DNA of 64,000 bases from contig NZ_CADFDB010000013.1 in NCBI RefSeq assembly GCF_902832845.1, positions 124,001 to 188,000 on the forward strand. The letters run 5' to 3'. Positions 10,291-29,995 of the stretch are shown piece by piece; positions within the stretch are counted from its first letter, which is position 1, and each line of letters begins with the position of its first letter. Made by a program: the position numbers and the translations under genes. A model generated the notes under the pieces. It was not told where the DNA came from and searched no databases. It saw only the letters and a program-made list of their open reading frames with translations. The DNA is from Burkholderia metallica. GTDB lineage: Bacteria; Pseudomonadota; Gammaproteobacteria; Burkholderiales; Burkholderiaceae.

Positions 10291-11493
<1,203 letters not shown>

Positions 11494-13093: not shown

Positions 13094-13456
13094 TCAACCC
13101 GGTGTCGGACCGGTCGCCACACTATTCAGCGCGGCGGCACGAATCAGCCGTGTCTCCTGCGCCGTGATCAGATGGCCCGATGCCTTCAGATAGGCGGGGA
13201 AATCCGGATGCGTATCGCGTGCATGGCACCGTCGTTCGTAGTCCGCCAGATCGTCGTATCCCCACAGGTGGGTGAACTGATTCTGCGGCCCGGCGAGACT
13301 CGTCCAGAAGCCGAGCGGATGTCCAAGCGTGTCGAGCAGGATCGGCATCGCAAGCCGGTCGAACACTTCGAGAAACTCGGGCATCTTGCGCAGCGCGATC
13401 GTGTAGACCCGGAAATCCACGAGCGGCTTGGCCAAATACATTGCACGGGTGTTCAT
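13094..13456 (-). CDS. NIPSNAP family protein
   Basis: A 120-residue alpha/beta-barrel dimer-type protein. The NIPSNAP hallmark is visible: FRVYTIALRKMPEFLEVFDRLAMPI, then GFWTSLAGPQNQFTHLWGYDDLADYERR, with the conserved H-W-Y block. The start overlaps the stop of the flavoprotein gene by 4 bp (ATGA), so the two are translationally coupled and probably act on the same pathway. NIPSNAP proteins have no established general reaction. Here it may bind, isomerise or tautomerise a ring intermediate; this is inference from coupling only. Confidence 0.8.
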   Translation of the reverse strand: MNTRAMYLAKPLVDFRVYTIALRKMPEFLEVFDRLAMPILLDTLGHPLGFWTSLAGPQNQFTHLWGYDDLADYERRCHARDTHPDFPAYLKASGHLITAQETRLIRAAALNSVATGPTPG

Positions 13457-15171
13457 GCGCGCACCTCCTCCATGCCGGCTGCCGCCGCCGCTTTATCGGC
13501 GATGGCGTTCCCCGTCACATAGCCGAACGTCATATTCGGCCCATGGGTGATACCCGCGCCCGGATAGTTGCCGCCCATCACGCTGCGCCGGTCGTTGCCG
13601 ACCGCGTAAAGTCCCTCGATCTCGCTGCCATCGGTGCGCAGCACCTCGCCGGTGACGCTCGTCCTGATGCCGTCGAACGTGCCCAGATCGCCCATCAACA
13701 CCTTGACCGCATAGAACGGGCCGGCCGAGATCGGCGCCACGCACGGATTGGGTTTGTGGTCCGGGTCGGCGAGATAGCGGTTGAACGACGTGCTGCCTCG
13801 ATGGAACGCCGGGTCTTCGCCGCGGACCGCATCCCGGTTGTAAGCGTCGACCGTCTTTTCGAGCGCATCGGGGTCGATCCCGCAACGGCGTGCCAGATCG
13901 CCGATCGTCCCGCCCTTGACGAGGTATCCGTTGCGCAGCAACGGACCAACCGGCATTGGCGCAGGCTTGGCATAGCCGAGTCCGTACTTCCCGAGCGCGA
14001 CCTTGTCGCAGATCAGCCACATCGCCGTCTCCTGCTCGCCTTCGCACGCGCGCATCAGCGCCGCGCCGACATCGTGGTAGGAGTTCGATTCGTTGGTGAA
14101 GCGCCGGCCGTTGCGCAGCACGCCGATCACGCCGGGCTTGTAACGGTCGAGCAGATGCGGGAACACACCCCAGCGGCCCTTGCCGAACGGCACCTTCGAG
14201 ACCGGCATCCACGCCGACGCATCGGCGAAGCCGAGATCCACGACGCCGCCCACCTGCTCCGCCATGGTTACGCCGTCGCCCGTATTGCTGATGGGCGTCG
14301 GCGACAGGTGCTCGCCCCCGCGCTTCACATGCGGATAGACCTGCGCGATACGCTCGAGATCGTGCGGAAAACCTCCACAGGCGAGCACGACGCCGTGCCG
14401 GGCGGCGATCCGTACGTCGCCGCTCGCGCGTACGCCGACGACCTTGCCGCTTTTGGTCAGCAGTTCCCGCACGGGCGTCGACGTGAGGATCGGAATGTCG
14501 AGCGCCAGCGCCGAGCGCGCGAGCCGCGCGGCCAGCGCATTGCCGCTCGTGACATTGGTCCCGCGCCGGTAGATCGCGAGTTCCTTGACGTGCGTCGCCA
14601 GACGACGCGCCACGTAGAGGAACGAGACCAGCGACTTCGTCGCGCGGAAGAAGTGCTTGAGGTCCGCGTTGGACGAATTGAACATCATCCCCATGAACGT
14701 AATCGTTTCGAGCGGCGGCTTGAGACGCCGCATATCCTTGCCCAGCCCACGGATGTCATAGGGCGCGGCGAGAATCGAGCGCCCGATGTCGGCACCGCCC
14801 GGCGCATCGGGGTGATAGTCGGGATAGAGCGTGGGCACGAATTTCACCTCGGTCTCGCGCTCGAAAAAATCGACCATCTTCGGGCCGTTCTCGATGAAGC
14901 ACCGGACCGCGGCGGCATCGTAGTTGCTGCCCGTCTCGCTCATCATGTATTCGCGCACGCGCTCGACGGTGTCGGCCGGGTTCTGCTGCCGGCCGTATTT
15001 GCTCAGCGGGATCCACAGCACGCCGCCGGACAGCGCGGTCGTCCCGCCGAACACGGGCTCCTTTTCGAGCACGACGACGTCGAGGCCGCGCTTCCTTGCG
15101 GTGATCGCCGTGGCGAGGCCCGCGGCCCCCGACCCGACCACGACCAGATCGCAATTGATCTCCTTGGCCAT
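13453..15171 (-). CDS. FAD-dependent desaturase (3-ketosteroid-dehydrogenase / fumarate-reductase flavoprotein family)
   Basis: A 572-residue flavoprotein. The N-terminal dinucleotide motif VVVGSGAAGLATAI is followed by EKEPVFGGTTALSGG, and a C-terminal FAD block reads GNDRRSVMGGNYPGAGITHGPNMTFGYV. The family (KstD-like) removes hydrogens next to a ring ketone, which suits 4-oxocyclohexanecarboxylate to the enone and on to 4-hydroxybenzoate. ATG at 15171 is chosen over an in-frame TTG two codons upstream because GAGGAG lies 7 nt before it. It sits between an SDR (34 bp upstream) and the coupled NIPSNAP gene. Substrate is inferred from the cluster, not from residues. Confidence 0.82.
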   Translation of the reverse strand: MAKEINCDLVVVGSGAAGLATAITARKRGLDVVVLEKEPVFGGTTALSGGVLWIPLSKYGRQQNPADTVERVREYMMSETGSNYDAAAVRCFIENGPKMVDFFERETEVKFVPTLYPDYHPDAPGGADIGRSILAAPYDIRGLGKDMRRLKPPLETITFMGMMFNSSNADLKHFFRATKSLVSFLYVARRLATHVKELAIYRRGTNVTSGNALAARLARSALALDIPILTSTPVRELLTKSGKVVGVRASGDVRIAARHGVVLACGGFPHDLERIAQVYPHVKRGGEHLSPTPISNTGDGVTMAEQVGGVVDLGFADASAWMPVSKVPFGKGRWGVFPHLLDRYKPGVIGVLRNGRRFTNESNSYHDVGAALMRACEGEQETAMWLICDKVALGKYGLGYAKPAPMPVGPLLRNGYLVKGGTIGDLARRCGIDPDALEKTVDAYNRDAVRGEDPAFHRGSTSFNRYLADPDHKPNPCVAPISAGPFYAVKVLMGDLGTFDGIRTSVTGEVLRTDGSEIEGLYAVGNDRRSVMGGNYPGAGITHGPNMTFGYVTGNAIADKAAAAAGMEEVRA

Positions 15172-15205
15172 ATCCAATCTCCTCGTCTTTATGGACTGCT
15201 GAATG

Positions 15206-16051
15206 TCATGCAGCCGGCGTTGCGTTGAAACCGGGGCGCGGGACCATGTCCATCAGCATGCAGTCGAGGCCGCCGTCGACGAGCAGCTCGGCACCGTTGA
15301 CGTAAGCCGCGAGATCGGACGCGAGGAACATGGCCGGGCCGGCGAGGTCTTCGGGTTCGCCGATGCGACGGCTCGCGGTAGCGGCGGCACGGCGCGCCTC
15401 GAAGCCGGGCTCCTCGTAGAACTTCGCCGAAAGTGCCGTGCGGATCATGCCGGGTAGCACGCAGTTGCTGCGCACGCCGCGCGGGCCCCACTCCGCCGCC
15501 AGTTGCCGCGAGAGCAGCAGCACGCCGGCCTTGCTCGGACTATAGGAACCGCTATTGGTCTGCGGATTGGCCGCTGCAATCGACGCGACATGAACGAGAC
15601 TGCCGTTGCCCGCCGTCAGCATGTCGCGCCCGAACGCGCGGGCGCACAGCAGATAGCCGGTCAGGTTGACGGCGATCGCCTGATTCCAGTCCGCGATCGA
15701 GACCGTTTCGAGCGATCCGGCGCGCAGCAGCCCGGCATTGTTGACGAGCACGTTGACGGGCCCGAGGGCTGCGCGAACCGCGTCGGCGGCCGCATGAACC
15801 GACGCTTCGTCCGACACGTCGCAGCCGAATGCCTGCGCCACCCCACCCGCCTGCCGCAGTTCGGCGGCGAGCGTTTCGGCGCCGGCCAGATTCCGGTCCA
15901 CCAGCGCCACCTGCGCGCCGGCACCGGCGAACGCGCGCGCGATTCCGGCGCCGATCCCGCTGCCCGCACCCGTGACCACGCAGATCTTGCCGCTCAGGTT
16001 CAACCCGGAAGGAGTCGAGGCCGCTGCACGATTTTCAAGTTCCTGTCTCAT
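15206..16051 (-). CDS. SDR family NAD(P)-dependent alcohol dehydrogenase (candidate 4-hydroxycyclohexanecarboxylate dehydrogenase)
   Basis: A 281-residue classical short-chain dehydrogenase. It has the cofactor motif VVTGAGSGIGAGIARAF (residues about 25-41), Asp after the second strand (ALVDRN, favouring NAD), NNAG at VLVNNAGLL, and the catalytic Ser with YSPSK (Tyr and Lys). The C terminus LVDGGLDCML is typical. It is the first gene of the minus-strand operon SDR-desaturase-NIPSNAP, transcribed away from the AraC gene, and its promoter carries the 36-bp element shared with the P450. The proposed reaction is trans-4-hydroxy- to 4-oxocyclohexanecarboxylate, by pathway logic. Confidence 0.82.
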   Translation of the reverse strand: MRQELENRAAASTPSGLNLSGKICVVTGAGSGIGAGIARAFAGAGAQVALVDRNLAGAETLAAELRQAGGVAQAFGCDVSDEASVHAAADAVRAALGPVNVLVNNAGLLRAGSLETVSIADWNQAIAVNLTGYLLCARAFGRDMLTAGNGSLVHVASIAAANPQTNSGSYSPSKAGVLLLSRQLAAEWGPRGVRSNCVLPGMIRTALSAKFYEEPGFEARRAAATASRRIGEPEDLAGPAMFLASDLAAYVNGAELLVDGGLDCMLMDMVPRPGFNATPAA

Positions 16052-16187: not shown

Positions 16188-17120
16188 ATGGCCAATGACC
16201 CACAGCGCCTTCGACCCGTTTTGCATTTCGCGCTCTATGGTGCGGAAGCCGGCCAGCCCTGGGTCGACATGGTTCACTACGAACGCATTGCGCTACGCGC
16301 CGGCCGTTTCGACTTCGAGATCAAGGCGCACGTCCACGATGCGCTGATCCAGGTGCTCTACGTCACGAGCGGCGGTGGGGAGACTTTCATCGACGGCAGG
16401 ACATGGGCAGTCGAAGCGCCCTGCCTCGTCGTCGTGCCCGCGCGCTCGGTCCACGGCTTTCACTTTCGGAGCGACATCGACGGTCACGTGATTACCGCCG
16501 CGCAGCCTGCGCTGGAATCGCTCGCAATGAGCGCCGCCCCCGAGCTACTGGAATTCATGCGCACGCCCACGGTGCTGTCGATCAATCCCGGCGCCGAGCG
16601 CGGCACCTCGCTGGACGCTCTGTTTCAGTCGATCGGGCACGAGGCGGAGAGTCACGAGCGCTGGCAGTTCACCGCGGGCGCGGCGCTGACGATCGCGTTG
16701 TTCGTCAAGATCGGGCGACTCAGCGAGAGCGCCCGGCTGTCTGCGAGTTCCGAGCAGCGAACGATGGCCGCGCGGATCGAGCGGTTTCGGGCGCTGCTCG
16801 ACCAGCACTGCCGCGAGCGGCGGCCGGTCGCCCGCTACGCCGCCGAGATGGGCGTGACCCCCGGCCAGCTCACCCGCATTTGCCGCGCCGCGTTCGGGGT
16901 CTCGGCCATCGAGGCAATCGATGCACGCTCGATCCACGAGGCCAAGCGACTGCTCGGCTATTCGTCGCTCAGCGTGAAGCAGATCGCCAGCGAGCTGGGC
17001 TTTCAGGACGAGGCCTATTTCGGCCGCTTCTTCCGCAAACAGACGGGCCTGCGGCCTACCGAATACCGGCTGACCGTCCACAACCGATCCTTGCCGTCCG
17101 GCAAGCAGGGAGCGGAGTGA
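16188..17120 (+). CDS. AraC family transcriptional regulator of the pobA/P450 cluster
   Basis: A 310-residue regulator with an N-terminal cupin-like sensing domain (HVHDALIQVLYVTSGGGETFIDG) and a C-terminal AraC domain with two helix-turn-helix units (VARYAAEMGVTPGQLTRICRAAFG and SVKQIASELGFQDEAYFGRFFRKQTGLRPTEYR). It resembles the PobC/PobR-type AraC activators that respond to 4-hydroxybenzoate. It is divergent from the SDR operon (136 bp apart) and convergent with the P450 gene (36 bp). The 36-bp element in front of both target promoters is the obvious candidate binding site. Confidence 0.85.
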   Translation: MANDPQRLRPVLHFALYGAEAGQPWVDMVHYERIALRAGRFDFEIKAHVHDALIQVLYVTSGGGETFIDGRTWAVEAPCLVVVPARSVHGFHFRSDIDGHVITAAQPALESLAMSAAPELLEFMRTPTVLSINPGAERGTSLDALFQSIGHEAESHERWQFTAGAALTIALFVKIGRLSESARLSASSEQRTMAARIERFRALLDQHCRERRPVARYAAEMGVTPGQLTRICRAAFGVSAIEAIDARSIHEAKRLLGYSSLSVKQIASELGFQDEAYFGRFFRKQTGLRPTEYRLTVHNRSLPSGKQGAE

Positions 17121-17156: not shown

Positions 17157-19958
17157 TTACGCCGACAGCCCGCCTAGCTTCACGAACAGATGCGCGGGAC
17201 CGGAGTTGGTCAGGTTGTTGCCGCGCACGTACTCGATCGGCCGGGTGGGATCGAGCGTAACGGCGCCAACCTTGCGGGCGAGCGCCTTCGTCGCGATCAG
17301 CGTCTCGAGCCTCGCGAGCGGCGCACCCAGGCACTTGTGCATGCCGTTGCCGAAGCCGAGATGGCCGCTGGAATCGCGATCGATGTCGAACGTCTCGCCG
17401 TCGGTGAATTTGCGGCTGTCGCGGTTCGCAGCCGACAGCAGCAGGCGCACCACCGCGCCCTTCGGCAGATCGACACCCGCGACGGTCGTCGCCTCGGTCG
17501 TGATGCGGCTGACGCGCTGGACGGTGCCGCGATAGCGCGCCACTTCCTCGACGAATTTGTCGGCGTCGGCCGGGTTTGCGCGCAGACGTCCGAGCAGACG
17601 GGGCTGTTCGGCAAGCATGCGGAAGGCGTTGGCGACCAGGATCGTCGTCGTGTCGTGCCCGGCGATGAAGACGAACGCGCACAGCTCCTTCGCCTCCTTC
17701 TCCGACAACAACCCGTCCTTCCACATGCGTGCGATATGCGCCCCGATCGACGGGCTGTCCGTGTGCGCGAGCCGCTCCATCGCTTCCTTCAGGTACGCAA
17801 AGAACGCGTGCGCGCTCTGTTCGTCGGTGCCCGTCCCCGGCGCATTGCGGGCGAGGCGGCCGAAGTAGCTGAACGTTTCGTCCGACCAGAACTTCATTTT
17901 CTCCTCATCCTCGTTCGGCACGTCGATCATCGCGGAGATGGTCGAGATGCTGAGCGGAATGGCGAAATCGTCGACGGCATCGCCGCCGCCCTTCGCAATC
18001 ATCGCGTCGAGCAGATCCTCCGCACGCTGCGAGATCGCATCGACAAACGGATCGAGCGCCAGCGGCAGGAAGGATGGCTGAACGACCTTGCGCAAGCGTG
18101 TATGGGCCGGCGCATCGAACAGCGTGAGGAACGTCAGCGGCGGCGGGCTGACAACCTCGGAAGAAAACAGCTTCGGATTGCGGATCGCCTGATAGACGTC
18201 GTCATAGCGCGACAGGAACCACACGTCCGACGTCGCCGACTGGCAACGCAGCACCGGAGCATGCTCGCGCATCCAGCGGTAATGCTCGTACGGATCGCCT
18301 TGCGAGCCGTCGTCGACCACCTTGAACGGCTCCAGCCCGTCGGGCCAGTCCAGCTCGTGCGAATAAGGCGGCAGGGGCGCAGCCGTAAACGGGCAGACGC
18401 CTGGCGCGCTCACCGGCAATGCCGGCACGGGGGCGGGGGCCGCCACGTGCGTCGAAGCGGCTTCGGGTGCCGCCCTGCCCTTCCCCATGCGCTCCAGCGC
18501 CCGGCTCATCGTTGCCTTGGAATGGCGCGCATGCAATGCAATCACGTCGCGTGCCGCGTTCAAGTCGCCCAGCTCGAACGCAGCGACGATGTCGCGGTGC
18601 TGCTGGACGATATCGCCAACGATCTCGATCTCGTCCGACAGTGCGCGAGCAATGAAGTCCTGCACCGCGAGCTCCCGATATAGCTTGATCAACTGGGCGT
18701 TCCCGGTAGCTTCGATCGTGAACAGATGGAACGCGTGATTGGCCTCGATGTAGCGCGGCACATCGGTGAAGCGCCGCCCGGACACGAACGGCGCCGTCGC
18801 TTCGGCGAGCCGGCGGAACGCGATCAACTGCTCGCTCGACAGCCGGCCCATGGTCAGTTGTGCCGCGCCCAGTTCGAGCGCCATTCGCAGGTCGAAGGCT
18901 TCATCGACGTCGACGGGCGCGATGTGCTCCTCGCCGGTCTGGACCACCAGGCCGGTGCCGGCGAACTTCTCGTAATAGAAGTTGCGCGGCGTGAGCCCTT
19001 CGGCGGCGAGGAAATCACGCACCGCGTCGACCATCGGCGGCGGCCCGCAGAGGTAGACGTCGGCATCGCCGCCGTTGAGTTGGCCAGCACCGATGTGGTG
19101 GGTCACATAGCCTTTGTTGGGATACACACTCCCGGGGTCGGCGACCGTGCACGCATAGGTGAAGTTCGGCAGGCGCCGTGCATAGCCTTCGAGCTGGTCG
19201 ACGCGGACGAGATCCGCGTCGGTGTTCACGCCGAGAATCATGTGGATCGGATACGGGCTGCCGCCGTCTTCGACGATCTTGTTCAGCATCGACAGAAAGG
19301 GCGCGAGGCCCGTGCCGCCCGCCAGAAACAGCACCGGACGTTCGATCGCGCGCAGGTAGAAGCTGCCCATCGGGCCGCGAAACTCGATCGGGTCGCCCGC
19401 TTTGGCGGTCTCGCAGAGCCACGTCGACATCACGCCTTGACGCACGTTGCGCACAAGGAAGGATACGTGCTGCTCGGACGGCCCGGAGCTGAACGAGTAG
19501 GAGCGTGTCTGGTCGGTGCCCGGAACCTTGATGTTGACGTACTGCCCGGGAAGGAAGCCGAGCTTCGCCCGATCGTCGAGTTCGACCGAAAAGGCGATCG
19601 TGCTGTCCGACTCACGTTGACAGGCAACGATCCTGCCCTTGTGGGAAGACGGGCCCGTGCCCGACACATCGGCGTTCGTCGCGATCTGGATCACGCAGTC
19701 GGAAAGCGGACTCATCTGGCAAGTGAGAACCTTGCGCTCGCTCATCTCGTCCGGGCCAAGCGCATCGTCCACGCAGTCGCCGAGCACGTACTCGCCGGAC
19801 TCGCACACCGCCTTGCAGGTGCCGCAGACACCATCGCGGCAATCGAGCGGGATATTGATCCTGGCGCGAATGGCGGCATCGGTCACGCGCTCGCCCTCCT
19901 CGCACTCGATGAATCGGGTCACTCCGTCCTCGAAACGGAGGGTGATCTGATGGGCCAT
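17157..19958 (-). CDS. chcA: Self-sufficient cytochrome P450: ferredoxin - FAD/NAD(P)H reductase - FCD - P450 fusion
   Basis: A single 933-residue chain with four parts. Residues 1-95 are a plant-type 2Fe-2S ferredoxin with Cys40, Cys45, Cys48 and Cys80. Residues about 105-335 are a BenC-like reductase with RSYSFSS (FAD), GGTGLAPF and CGPPPM (NAD(P)H). Residues about 350-492 match the FCD ligand domain of GntR regulators (ANHAFH at 406-411, His454, His476) but no DNA-binding helix precedes them. After a Pro/Ala linker, residues about 530-933 are a P450 with I-helix AGHDTTT (766-772), ExxR at 805-808 and heme Cys876 in FGNGMHKCLG. From memory this order matches P450CHC (ChcA), a cyclohexanecarboxylate 4-hydroxylase of Paraburkholderia. 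AGGAG precedes the ATG. Confidence 0.88.
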   Translation of the reverse strand: MAHQITLRFEDGVTRFIECEEGERVTDAAIRARINIPLDCRDGVCGTCKAVCESGEYVLGDCVDDALGPDEMSERKVLTCQMSPLSDCVIQIATNADVSGTGPSSHKGRIVACQRESDSTIAFSVELDDRAKLGFLPGQYVNIKVPGTDQTRSYSFSSGPSEQHVSFLVRNVRQGVMSTWLCETAKAGDPIEFRGPMGSFYLRAIERPVLFLAGGTGLAPFLSMLNKIVEDGGSPYPIHMILGVNTDADLVRVDQLEGYARRLPNFTYACTVADPGSVYPNKGYVTHHIGAGQLNGGDADVYLCGPPPMVDAVRDFLAAEGLTPRNFYYEKFAGTGLVVQTGEEHIAPVDVDEAFDLRMALELGAAQLTMGRLSSEQLIAFRRLAEATAPFVSGRRFTDVPRYIEANHAFHLFTIEATGNAQLIKLYRELAVQDFIARALSDEIEIVGDIVQQHRDIVAAFELGDLNAARDVIALHARHSKATMSRALERMGKGRAAPEAASTHVAAPAPVPALPVSAPGVCPFTAAPLPPYSHELDWPDGLEPFKVVDDGSQGDPYEHYRWMREHAPVLRCQSATSDVWFLSRYDDVYQAIRNPKLFSSEVVSPPPLTFLTLFDAPAHTRLRKVVQPSFLPLALDPFVDAISQRAEDLLDAMIAKGGGDAVDDFAIPLSISTISAMIDVPNEDEEKMKFWSDETFSYFGRLARNAPGTGTDEQSAHAFFAYLKEAMERLAHTDSPSIGAHIARMWKDGLLSEKEAKELCAFVFIAGHDTTTILVANAFRMLAEQPRLLGRLRANPADADKFVEEVARYRGTVQRVSRITTEATTVAGVDLPKGAVVRLLLSAANRDSRKFTDGETFDIDRDSSGHLGFGNGMHKCLGAPLARLETLIATKALARKVGAVTLDPTRPIEYVRGNNLTNSGPAHLFVKLGGLSA

Positions 19959-23233: not shown

Positions 23234-24223
23234 TCATTCGGCGTCGCGTGCCGAGCGGAAAGCGTGCGATTCGGTTTCGTTCGCGAGACGCCGCCATTGT
23301 CCGGGCGTCATCCCCATCTTGTCGGTGAACACGCGCCGGAATGCGGCGACGGATCGGTAGCCGATCGCCTCGGCCACGGCCTCGGTGCTCATCGCCGGCT
23401 TCTTCAGCTCGTTCGCGGCCAGCGTCATCCGGATGTCGGTGAGCAGGTCCGTGGCTGAACGCCCCAGCTTGTCCTGGAAGTGCCGCATGAAGGTCGCGCG
23501 CGACATGTTGCACAGATCGGCCAGCTCGGGCAGGCTCCACGGTCGGGCGGGGTCGGCGAACATCGCCGACATGGCCGGCGCCAGCCGCGGATGGCCGGCC
23601 AGCGCGAGCAGCCCCGTCGGCGCTTGCCCGGATTCGCTCGCCGCGCGCAGCACGAGCGTGAACAGTGCGGAAGTCAGTGCGTTGAGGATCGCGTATCCAC
23701 CGGGCTTCTCGCCGGCCGCCTCCATCCGCATCAACGCGACGAGACCGGCGAGCTGGTTCGACACAGAGCCGTTGCCGTCGTCACCACCACCGTCGACGGA
23801 CCGTACCGTCAACGTCGTCGGCAGGTAGTCGCGAATCAGCCGGTCGTGCGGCGGTCTGATGAAGAACCGTCCGCACAGCATGTCCAGGCGTTCGCCGCGA
23901 CCGTCGTTCTCGCTGAGTATCCCTCCGGCGAAGCCCTGGCGATTGTGCGTGCGTCCCGGCGTATGTCCGCTGCCGTCGTGCAGCACGTGCGCGGCGCCGT
24001 GCGGCAACAGCACGATGTCGCCGCTCGCTAGCTCCCTGACCGTACCCGTGCCGGTATCCTCGAGCACGGCGCGCCCTTCGAGCACGACATGGTACGGAAT
24101 CTCGTGTGCGGCCGATCGATCCCACGCGACGTGCCACGGCGCACCGTACACGCAGCGGACCTCCACCCGGCCGGTGACGGTGATCATTTGCAGAAGATGG
24201 CTCAGCCAGTCGATGTCGGACAT
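23234..24223 (-). CDS. AraC family regulator with cupin sensor, paralogue 1
   Basis: A 329-residue regulator. The N-terminal AraC_binding_2/cupin-type domain has EIPYHVVLEGRAVLE and LASGDIVLLPHGAAHVLHDG; the C-terminal AraC domain has LADLCNMSRATFMRHFQDKLG and AVAEAIGYRSVAAFRRVFTDKMGMTPGQWRR. The start MSDIDWLSHLLQM at 24223 matches the start of its paralogue at 29681. The two proteins are nearly identical over the HTH region, so they probably share a binding site. It lies 83 bp after the SDR-GNAT fusion and just upstream of promoter element copy 1. This family often governs oxidoreductase genes next door. Confidence 0.85.
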   Translation of the reverse strand: MSDIDWLSHLLQMITVTGRVEVRCVYGAPWHVAWDRSAAHEIPYHVVLEGRAVLEDTGTGTVRELASGDIVLLPHGAAHVLHDGSGHTPGRTHNRQGFAGGILSENDGRGERLDMLCGRFFIRPPHDRLIRDYLPTTLTVRSVDGGGDDGNGSVSNQLAGLVALMRMEAAGEKPGGYAILNALTSALFTLVLRAASESGQAPTGLLALAGHPRLAPAMSAMFADPARPWSLPELADLCNMSRATFMRHFQDKLGRSATDLLTDIRMTLAANELKKPAMSTEAVAEAIGYRSVAAFRRVFTDKMGMTPGQWRRLANETESHAFRSARDAE

Positions 24224-24306
24224 GGGGTTTCGAAACACCGGAAGCGTTCGGGCATTTTATGGCGGTTTCGCGCGGCCGTACGCGCGTTCGACGGCGCGCG
24301 ATTGTG

Positions 24307-28724: not shown

Positions 28725-29681
28725 TCATTCGACTTCTTCGGTCCGACGCCGCCACTGCCCCGGCGTCATCCCCATCTTGTCGGTGAACACGCGCCGGAAG
28801 GCGGCGACCGATCGGTAGCCGATCGACTCGGCTACCGCCTCGGTGCTCATTGCGGGCTTCTTCAACTCGTTCGCAGCCAGCGTCATCCGGATGTCGGTGA
28901 GCAGGTCCGTGGCGGAGCGGCCGAGCTTGTCGTGAAAGTGCCGCATGAAGGTCGCGCGCGACATGTTGCACAGATCGGCCAGCTCGGGCAGGCTCCACGG
29001 TCGCGCGGGGTCGGCGAACATCGCCGAAATGGCCGGCGCCAGCCGCGGATGGCCGGCCAGCGCGAGGAGCCCCGCCGGTGCTTGCCCGGACTCGTTCGCT
29101 GCGCGCAGCACGAGCGTGAACAGCGCGGAAGTCAGTGCGTTCAGGGTTGCGTATCCGCCGGGCTTGTCGCCAACCGACACCATGCGCATCAGCTCGACGA
29201 GGCTCGCAAGCTGGTTCGATGCGGACCCGGTGTCGTTCTCGCCGCTGCCGCTCACGTAACGGACCGTCAGCGTCGTCGGCAAGTAGTCGCGAATCAGCCG
29301 GTCGTGCGGCGGTCTGATGAAGAATCGTCCGCACAGCAGGTCCAGACGCTCACCCGAAGCATCGTGGCCGCTGCGGGTCCGGCCGCCCGGGCCGTGACGG
29401 TTGCAGGTGACGCACCGCACGTGTCGGCTGCCGTCGTGCAGCACGTGCGCGGCGCCGTGCGGCAACAGCACGATGTCGCCGCTTGCCAGTTCCGTGATCG
29501 AGCCGGTGCCGGCATCCTCGAGCACGGCGCGCCCGTTGAGCACGATGTGGTACGGAATCTCGTGCGCGGCGGCTCGGGCCCAGGTCAACTGCCACGGCGA
29601 ACCGTAACCGCAGCGCACTTCCAGCTGGCCGGTGACGGTAATCATTTGCAGAAGCTGGCTCAGCGAATCGACTTGGGACAT
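28725..29681 (-). CDS. AraC family regulator with cupin sensor, paralogue 2
   Basis: A 318-residue paralogue of the regulator at 23234-24223, sharing EIPYHIVLNGRAVLE, the block LASGDIVLLPHGAAHVLHDG and an almost identical C-terminal AraC domain. Divergence is concentrated between residues 95 and 150, where this copy has an extra Cys pair (HVRCVTCNRHG) absent from paralogue 1. The start MSQVDSLSQLLQM at 29681 aligns with the paralogue start; sequence upstream in the same frame is a nitroreductase remnant. It precedes the nitroreductase gene and promoter element copy 2. Confidence 0.85.
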   Translation of the reverse strand: MSQVDSLSQLLQMITVTGQLEVRCGYGSPWQLTWARAAAHEIPYHIVLNGRAVLEDAGTGSITELASGDIVLLPHGAAHVLHDGSRHVRCVTCNRHGPGGRTRSGHDASGERLDLLCGRFFIRPPHDRLIRDYLPTTLTVRYVSGSGENDTGSASNQLASLVELMRMVSVGDKPGGYATLNALTSALFTLVLRAANESGQAPAGLLALAGHPRLAPAISAMFADPARPWSLPELADLCNMSRATFMRHFHDKLGRSATDLLTDIRMTLAANELKKPAMSTEAVAESIGYRSVAAFRRVFTDKMGMTPGQWRRRTEEVE

Positions 29682-29771
29682 GGGCTTTGGGAACTCGAAT
29701 TGGCCGTTCACTGCGTCGGCATCGAAGCGGATCATCGTCGCGGCGCCGTGCATGCTGCTGCGTATTGCGCG
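29682..29771 (-). pseudogene. Remnant of a second nitroreductase gene
   Basis: Translating the minus strand in frame with the AraC start gives RAIRSSMHGAATMIRFDADA then VNGQFEFPKP. This aligns with the intact nitroreductase segment YAARSLGLGSTPMIGFDPDG then VHREFGLADD, with matching spacing. Only about 30 codons are recognisable and the frame then runs into the AraC start. The rest of the 314-bp gap (29772-29995) shows no gene. It is evidence of duplication and loss around the AraC genes. Confidence 0.5.
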
Positions 29772-29995
29772 CGGGCCTGATCGACACGGCCATACGGTTC
29801 GCCCCGCGCACGTCCGGCACGGCACCGTGCCTGCGCGATACGCGTGGCGTGCATGCACATGCCGGCGCTGCCCGATTCGAACCCACGACCGACTGTGACG
29901 ACAACGCGCATTCCTCGTCGACGACGCACGTCGCGTCGACGTTCGCCCCGCAACCGGATGCTCGCCGCCCGCGTGCGTGCGCCCTCGGATCGCGG

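Follow-up and report, generated by a model that had tools for sequence, protein, structure and literature searches.

The 64-kb window, i.e., the whole stretch of DNA analysed here, carries on its minus strand one gene for a 933-residue fusion protein of the P450CHC type (17157..19958), in which a ferredoxin, a FAD/NAD reductase, an FCD domain and a cytochrome P450 follow one another in a single chain. P450CHC, which we take to be the short name of the enzyme from Paraburkholderia terrae KU-64 and its like, did not occur as a name among the matches listed in the open-access literature. The 2Fe-2S ferredoxin domain (residues 10-84, 19707..19931) contains C-x4-C-x2-C at 40-48, the FAD-binding domain (residues 110-201, 19356..19631) RSYS at 152, the NAD-binding domain (residues 211-314, 19017..19328) GGTGLAP at 214, and the P450 domain (approximately residues 545-930, 17169..18326) both AGHDTT at 766 and the heme-cysteine motif FGNGMHKCLG at 869; the catalytic motifs of the ferredoxin, reductase and P450 parts are thus intact. 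In between lie the reductase-FCD junction (residues 334-352, 18903..18959, within a 20-residue stretch at 333-352), the FCD itself (residues 353-478, 18525..18902) and an Ala/Pro-rich FCD-P450 linker (residues 494-534, 18357..18479) predicted with a pLDDT below 50. All coordinates within the gene refer to the minus strand.

An earlier note, made from the sequence alone, had described a ferredoxin-reductase-FCD-P450 fusion with the FCD at about residues 350-492 and no DNA-binding helix, and the domain search bears this out: the FCD profile (PF07729) scores above its curated cut-off with a span of 353-478, the domain predicted in isolation adopts a confident, all-helical FCD fold, and no winged-helix DNA-binding domain of the GntR/FadR type was matched by Pfam in the protein at E <=1. 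A phmmer search of the PDB with the single FCD sequence gave weak matches (best E 0.0098), and an alignment-derived profile recovered 18 distinct PDB sequences at E <=1e-5. The full-length structure prediction (pTM 0.50) does not fix the placement of the domains, with residues 333-348 below a pLDDT of 50 at the conserved junction, and a domain arrangement read from it was set aside. The fusion protein passes the BenC model NF040810 (492.4 bits, cut-off 430), and the other fusion proteins, many from Paraburkholderia, are 83-89% identical to it over the reductase part. According to a review passage, Yamamoto et al. (2022, doi 10.1093/bbb/zbab199) described a single chain of ferredoxin, FAD domain, FCD-like domain and P450 in strain KU-64, a system that carries out the first hydroxylation of cyclohexanecarboxylate (PMC9687028). 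The domain order found here by Pfam is the one given in that passage; the window gene therefore adds one more member to a kind already published, as the note had suggested, and its product is very probably a self-sufficient, P450CHC-type enzyme. That the role of the FCD is open, as also claimed there, fits the review passage, which states none, and a functional study of an FCD within an enzyme was absent from the matches listed in the open-access literature, judged mostly by titles and the beginnings of abstracts.

The fusion gene is adjoined by a convergent gene for an AraC-type regulator (16188..17120, plus strand), which is present in 39 of 39 homologous loci (window excluded). Further genes on the minus strand encode a short-chain dehydrogenase (SDR; 15206..16051, 24/39 loci), a FAD-dependent dehydrogenase (13453..15177, 23/39) and a NIPSNAP-family small protein (13094..13456, 23/39), all counts including loci cut by contig ends, as well as a PobA-type 4-hydroxybenzoate 3-monooxygenase (10291..11475; TIGR02360, 679.4 bits, cut-off 538.7). 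The SDR passes the generic subfamily model PRK07231.1 only (228.7 bits, cut-off 215) and remains below the cut-off of the ChcB2 model (173.6 bits, cut-off 350), and the FAD-dependent dehydrogenase likewise falls below that of ChcC2 (558.2 bits, cut-off 900), so that their ChcB-like and ChcC-like roles are putative. Together the neighbouring genes fit a cyclohexanecarboxylate aromatisation route, with the PobA-type enzyme as the expected next step after aromatisation, and by analogy with the published KU-64 enzyme and from the gene cluster, cyclohexanecarboxylate is the presumed substrate of the fusion. A search of the whole window for BenA homologues found none at E 1e-5. Besides the fusion, the genome encodes a separate BenC-type reductase that carries no FCD.

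FCD domains are known for a metal-binding set of Asp/Asn plus three His, which is not kept in all FCD regulators. In the fusion it is present as a predicted site formed by Asn407 (18738..18740), His411 (18726..18728), His454 (18597..18599) and His476 (18531..18533), as correctly numbered in the note, and each of the four is invariant in 71/71 enzyme-borne FCD sequences (51 P450-type and 20 BenC-type, repeats included; 60 distinct FCD regions). The suspicion that Asn407 marks a weakened site was not supported by comparison. Asn occupies this position in 2/13 regulators of the same genome, in 13/13 similar regulators of the same family (a count biased by their being chosen for resemblance to the query) and in 5/27 actinobacterial regulators (those with a locus given), with Asp in 9, 0 and 19, respectively, and in the regulator Ps5454 Asn144 takes part in Ni2+ binding together with His148, His192 and His214, as a passage of the DgoR paper has it (PMC7674646); the reading of Asn407 as a broken metal site was accordingly rejected. 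For CitO, the corresponding paper likewise reports Asn147 and two His as modelled ligands and 1.02 Ni per molecule as measured (PMC4746285). With the help of the metal, the FCD of DgoR binds galactonate (PMC7674646) and that of CitO citrate (PMC4746285), as stated in the same passages.

Two further positions bear on the ligand. Arg358 (18885..18887), which the profile alignment pairs with DgoR Arg102, is Arg in 70/71 sequences, and Thr483 (18510..18512), present in 71/71, aligns with DgoR Arg224, which is reported to be required for ligand binding (PMC7674646); most of the regulators compared have a residue other than Thr at this position. A different ligand from that of the known regulators is therefore to be expected, and it would probably be smaller or less polar. 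Residue 436 is Met in 20/20 BenC-type and Ile in 51/51 P450-type sequences, and we would guess that it lines the FCD pocket. Median dN/dS was 0.123 for the ferredoxin, 0.154 for the FAD/NAD part, 0.057 for the junction (334-352), 0.118 for the FCD, 0.393 for the linker (taken as residues 481-540) and 0.075 for the P450, as calculated from 33 sequences (528 non-independent pairs, 524 to 527 usable; L050 with a frame break and L076 at a contig edge omitted). Purifying selection of the same order as on the ferredoxin, together with the metal-site signature, indicates that the FCD is constrained as a working domain.

The FCD is not confined to P450 fusions. A pattern scan with the FCD alignment through the genomes of 84,980 species, which detects loci with the exact peptide pattern only, picked up 42 loci, of which 34 are of the P450 type and 8 actinobacterial. 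The former (L046-L079) all belong to Burkholderiales genera, one having a break and another being truncated at the end of a contig, and none of the latter is a P450 fusion: in Pseudonocardia asaccharolytica and two Corynebacterium the protein is a BenC that ends after the FCD, and in three Tsukamurella and two Pseudonocardia it is longer, a matching Tsukamurella plasmid protein being BenC-FCD-BenD by Pfam. BenA is encoded upstream and BenD downstream or fused in all ten actinobacterial loci examined (the eight from the scan plus L040 and L217), and at the P. asaccharolytica locus the BenA, BenC and BenD models all score above their cut-offs. Among 394 actinobacterial genomes (best 3 candidates scored per genome), BenC was found at E <=1e-80 in 14, with an FCD in the same frame in 12 and none by profile in the other two, so that most benzoate dioxygenase reductases in this sample bear a ligand-type domain for which the matches listed contained no functional study. 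In passages of two papers the domain appears as annotation, with no link to a P450 made there, namely for BenC of Gordonia alkanivorans YC-RL2 (PMC6362181) and for BenC of Rhodococcus TG-1, labelled an "FCD domain-containing protein" (PMC11858498). When 299 genomes of the window's own phylum were searched with reductase plus FCD (E <=1e-60, best 5 candidates scored per genome), matches occurred in 19 genomes (22 sequences), and the FCD was covered by the window's own sequence only; 20 of the 21 others stop by query residue 345, and the remaining one (G970), which reaches residue 379, lacks the domain by profile. In 299 Burkholderiaceae genomes sampled separately (best 10 candidates scored per genome), the P450-type FCD was present in 12, including that of the window.

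In a tree of the domain, the 30 enzyme-borne FCDs fall together as a single clade, apart from the 53 of regulators (support 99/99), and the P450 type has the 495-aa BenC-FCD of Pseudonocardia as its sister (92/89), on an alignment of few columns whose bootstrap had not fully settled; left out of the regulator set were L013, a repeat of the window, and L126, L138 and L140, repeats of BenC-FCD. The nearest regulators of the window's family (28-32% identity over the query) fall outside the enzyme-borne clade, and a direct acquisition of the FCD from a neighbouring or same-family regulator was rejected. The reductase-FCD junction measures 20 residues in 48/48 unbroken fusions and in the P. asaccharolytica BenC-FCD, which supports common descent of the P450 type and the Pseudonocardia BenC-FCD; the tether spans 44-200 aa in the remaining 19/20 actinobacterial BenC-FCD sequences. 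A chance or artefactual fusion was rejected as well, given the recurrent fusion loci in the pattern scan and the constant length of the junction.

Two trees of the reductase, built from 47 and 33 of 125 reductase sequences, both group the Pseudonocardia BenC-FCD, the FCD-less proteobacterial BenC and the P450 fusions (99/96 and 97/97). The first leaves the order of these three groups open and places a long-branched, FCD-less actinobacterial sequence (L110) beside the fusions (84/79). The second, which omits L108 and L110 (no FCD) and others, joins the fusions weakly to the FCD-less proteobacterial BenC (94/46) with the Pseudonocardia BenC-FCD outside, and does not reject a single clade of FCD-bearing reductases (p-AU 0.463). 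This disagreement with the FCD tree means either that proteobacterial BenC has lost the FCD or that the reductase tree lacks resolution. A single origin of the enzyme-borne FCD is indicated by the FCD tree, and the reductase trees would be compatible with gain or loss.

As to the P450, sequences of at least 90% identity were found in 12/299 Burkholderiaceae genomes (best 6 candidates scored per genome), all at P450-type fusion loci (that of G296 with a frame break), and the other matches listed there do not exceed 36%. The nearest unfused relative found in 345 actinobacterial genomes (best 5 candidates scored per genome) is a stand-alone P450 of the actinobacterium G305 (L216) with 72% identity, followed by a next best of 39%. 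Its gene cluster encodes proteins that pass the ChcC1 (1010.1 bits, cut-off 1000) and ChcC2 (1019.5 bits, cut-off 900) models as well as a ferredoxin and a Pyr_redox_2-type ferredoxin reductase as separate proteins, with no FCD, and the same genome also holds a BenC-FCD (L099/L217). Two parts of the fusion, its FCD and its P450, therefore have close counterparts in actinobacteria, and a related P450 occurs in nature in a system free of an FCD. The earlier note had the FCD spliced between reductase and P450. This was not borne out: reductase plus FCD is free-standing in actinobacterial benzoate operons, which makes the P450 the likelier added part. Probably a chc-type P450 was joined C-terminally to a BenC-type reductase that already carried its FCD, an order of events read from the sequence comparisons. 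That the FCD was probably not inserted into a monooxygenase is new here as far as we searched.

We therefore favour, with a probability of about 0.5, the overall reading that this is an enzyme of the P450CHC kind whose FCD belongs with the reductase and, through metal-assisted sensing of a ring carboxylate, conditions the supply of electrons. Electrons from NADH would pass via FAD and the 2Fe-2S cluster to the heme, which would hydroxylate cyclohexanecarboxylate and so open the aromatisation route to 4-hydroxybenzoate. With the metal site of the regulators and a ligand-binding arginine, the FCD would most likely use the metal to bind a ring carboxylate, either the substrate itself or a closely related compound, and a conformational or oligomeric change might then make electron supply conditional on substrate and limit uncoupled NADH use. 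The FCD would act with the reductase, not with the P450, and in its likeliest role it would sense a carboxylate with the help of the metal and thereby gate or organise the reductase; the odds of a ligand-sensing role, taken by itself, we put a shade below even. In its favour, the FCD accompanies BenC-type reductases in two systems, the ben operons (as BenC-FCD or BenC-FCD-BenD) and the P450 fusions, and both hosts act on ring carboxylates, benzoate as indicated by the operon and cyclohexanecarboxylate as stated in the review passage (PMC9687028). Against it, FCD-less BenC loci were found by scanning, among them the second copy in the window's genome, and the 72% identical P450 has class I partners, so that the FCD seems dispensable for either chemistry; the long tethers in 19/20 actinobacterial sequences also argue against tight mechanical gating everywhere, and the Thr at the DgoR Arg224 position against a ligand that is simply that of known regulators. 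Going further, BenC-FCD could be a transferable substrate-sensing reductase module that once served a Rieske dioxygenase and came to serve a P450, with its pocket retuned, the FCD binding the ring-carboxylate substrate through the metal and then licensing electron flow, an extension that we regard as more doubtful than sensing itself.

Of the roles proposed in the earlier note, sensor or gate and dimerising module both remain, and the mere spacer agrees poorly with the data. The main rival to sensing, though in our view an unlikely one, is that the FCD is chiefly a dimerising or assembly module that pairs two reductases or docks the reductase to the oxygenase or to BenD: the title of structure 5tpm calls the FCD of PdhR, a regulator, a dimerisation domain, long tethers would suit an anchor better than a lever, and the metal ligands may be structural, but a scaffold would hardly need the near-invariant Arg358. 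Less probable by some distance is a store or relay of substrate, which would enrich carboxylate around the active site and leave electron flow unregulated; it would be in keeping with a probable ligand pocket in an enzyme whose substrates are ring carboxylates, and with the FCD of BenC-FCD-BenD adjoining the next enzyme of the pathway, but small acids diffuse freely, and other self-sufficient P450s, to our knowledge, manage without an FCD-like domain. A vestigial spacer is very improbable even though BenC-type reductases and the 72% identical P450 both occur without an FCD, because the metal site is invariant across two phyla, the FCD is under purifying selection while the linker beside it is relaxed, and the FCD also terminates BenC proteins (L080, L085) in which there is nothing to space.

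Self-sufficient P450s are sought-after biocatalysts that commonly suffer from uncoupled NADH use. If the FCD indeed makes electron supply dependent on substrate, it would represent a natural, portable coupling switch, and a ligand domain of transcription factors would have been turned to controlling the redox partner of an enzyme allosterically. With this evidence the question of the FCD becomes one about the reductase instead of the P450, and as the domain most likely came with the reductase half, its role can be addressed in natural comparisons, of BenC with and without FCD and of related P450s with and without it.

Among known systems, the FCD-family GntR regulators (Ps5454/3c7j, TM0439, DgoR, CitO) differ from the fusion in having a DNA-binding domain, of which none was found here. 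P450CHC of KU-64, compared through the review passage, has the same domain order and no known difference, and the neighbouring genes of the window suggest the same cyclohexanecarboxylate pathway. The stand-alone chc P450 of G305 shares the P450 domain and has class I partners in its cluster instead of a fused reductase and FCD. The actinobacterial BenC-FCD and BenC-FCD-BenD proteins (e.g., that of P. asaccharolytica, L080, with a junction of identical length) share the reductase and the FCD clade with the fusion, but they are encoded in ben operons alongside a Rieske dioxygenase, and their C-terminal partner is either none or BenD, whereas that of the fusion is a P450.

A short and loosely defined motif, [IVL]xGQ, occurs in one to three copies in the linker preceding the FCD domain in 14 of the 20 actinobacterial benzoate dioxygenase reductases that carry this domain (BenC-FCD; loci L100-L106, L081-L084, L087, L109 and L040), whereas it is found in the reductase-FCD linker of none of the 48 unbroken fusions of the P450 type. 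It is possibly a docking motif. The reading frame of two further fusions is broken at domain junctions, between FCD and P450 in L026 and between reductase and FCD in L050, which may represent either genuine splits or sequencing errors.

An AraC gene is present at fusion loci L042-L045, L048, L053, L054, L060, L065, L069, L071 and L077, and also at L064 and L067; the SDR, the FAD dehydrogenase and the NIPSNAP protein were not found within the available flanks of these loci, apart from a fragment of the SDR matched at L064 and L067. Two regulator-like proteins are also encoded on the minus strand of the window (23234-24238 and 28725-29858), about 4.5 kb apart; they share 80.7% identity across 322 residues and their C-termini, judged by eye, are AraC-type.

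On a plasmid of Paraburkholderia sp. FT54, a 929-aa P450 fusion (L041:8041-10830) is labelled "BenC" in the public annotation. A possible reason is that the first third of the protein clears the cut-off of the BenC model, as the first third of the window's fusion protein does. P450 fusions of this kind may be among the proteins counted as BenC in databases. The genome of the window additionally encodes a BenC-type reductase without FCD (G000:C2:168182-169171), whose product is 56% identical to the reductase of the fusion, and the two together offer a natural comparison of such a reductase with and without FCD within one genome.
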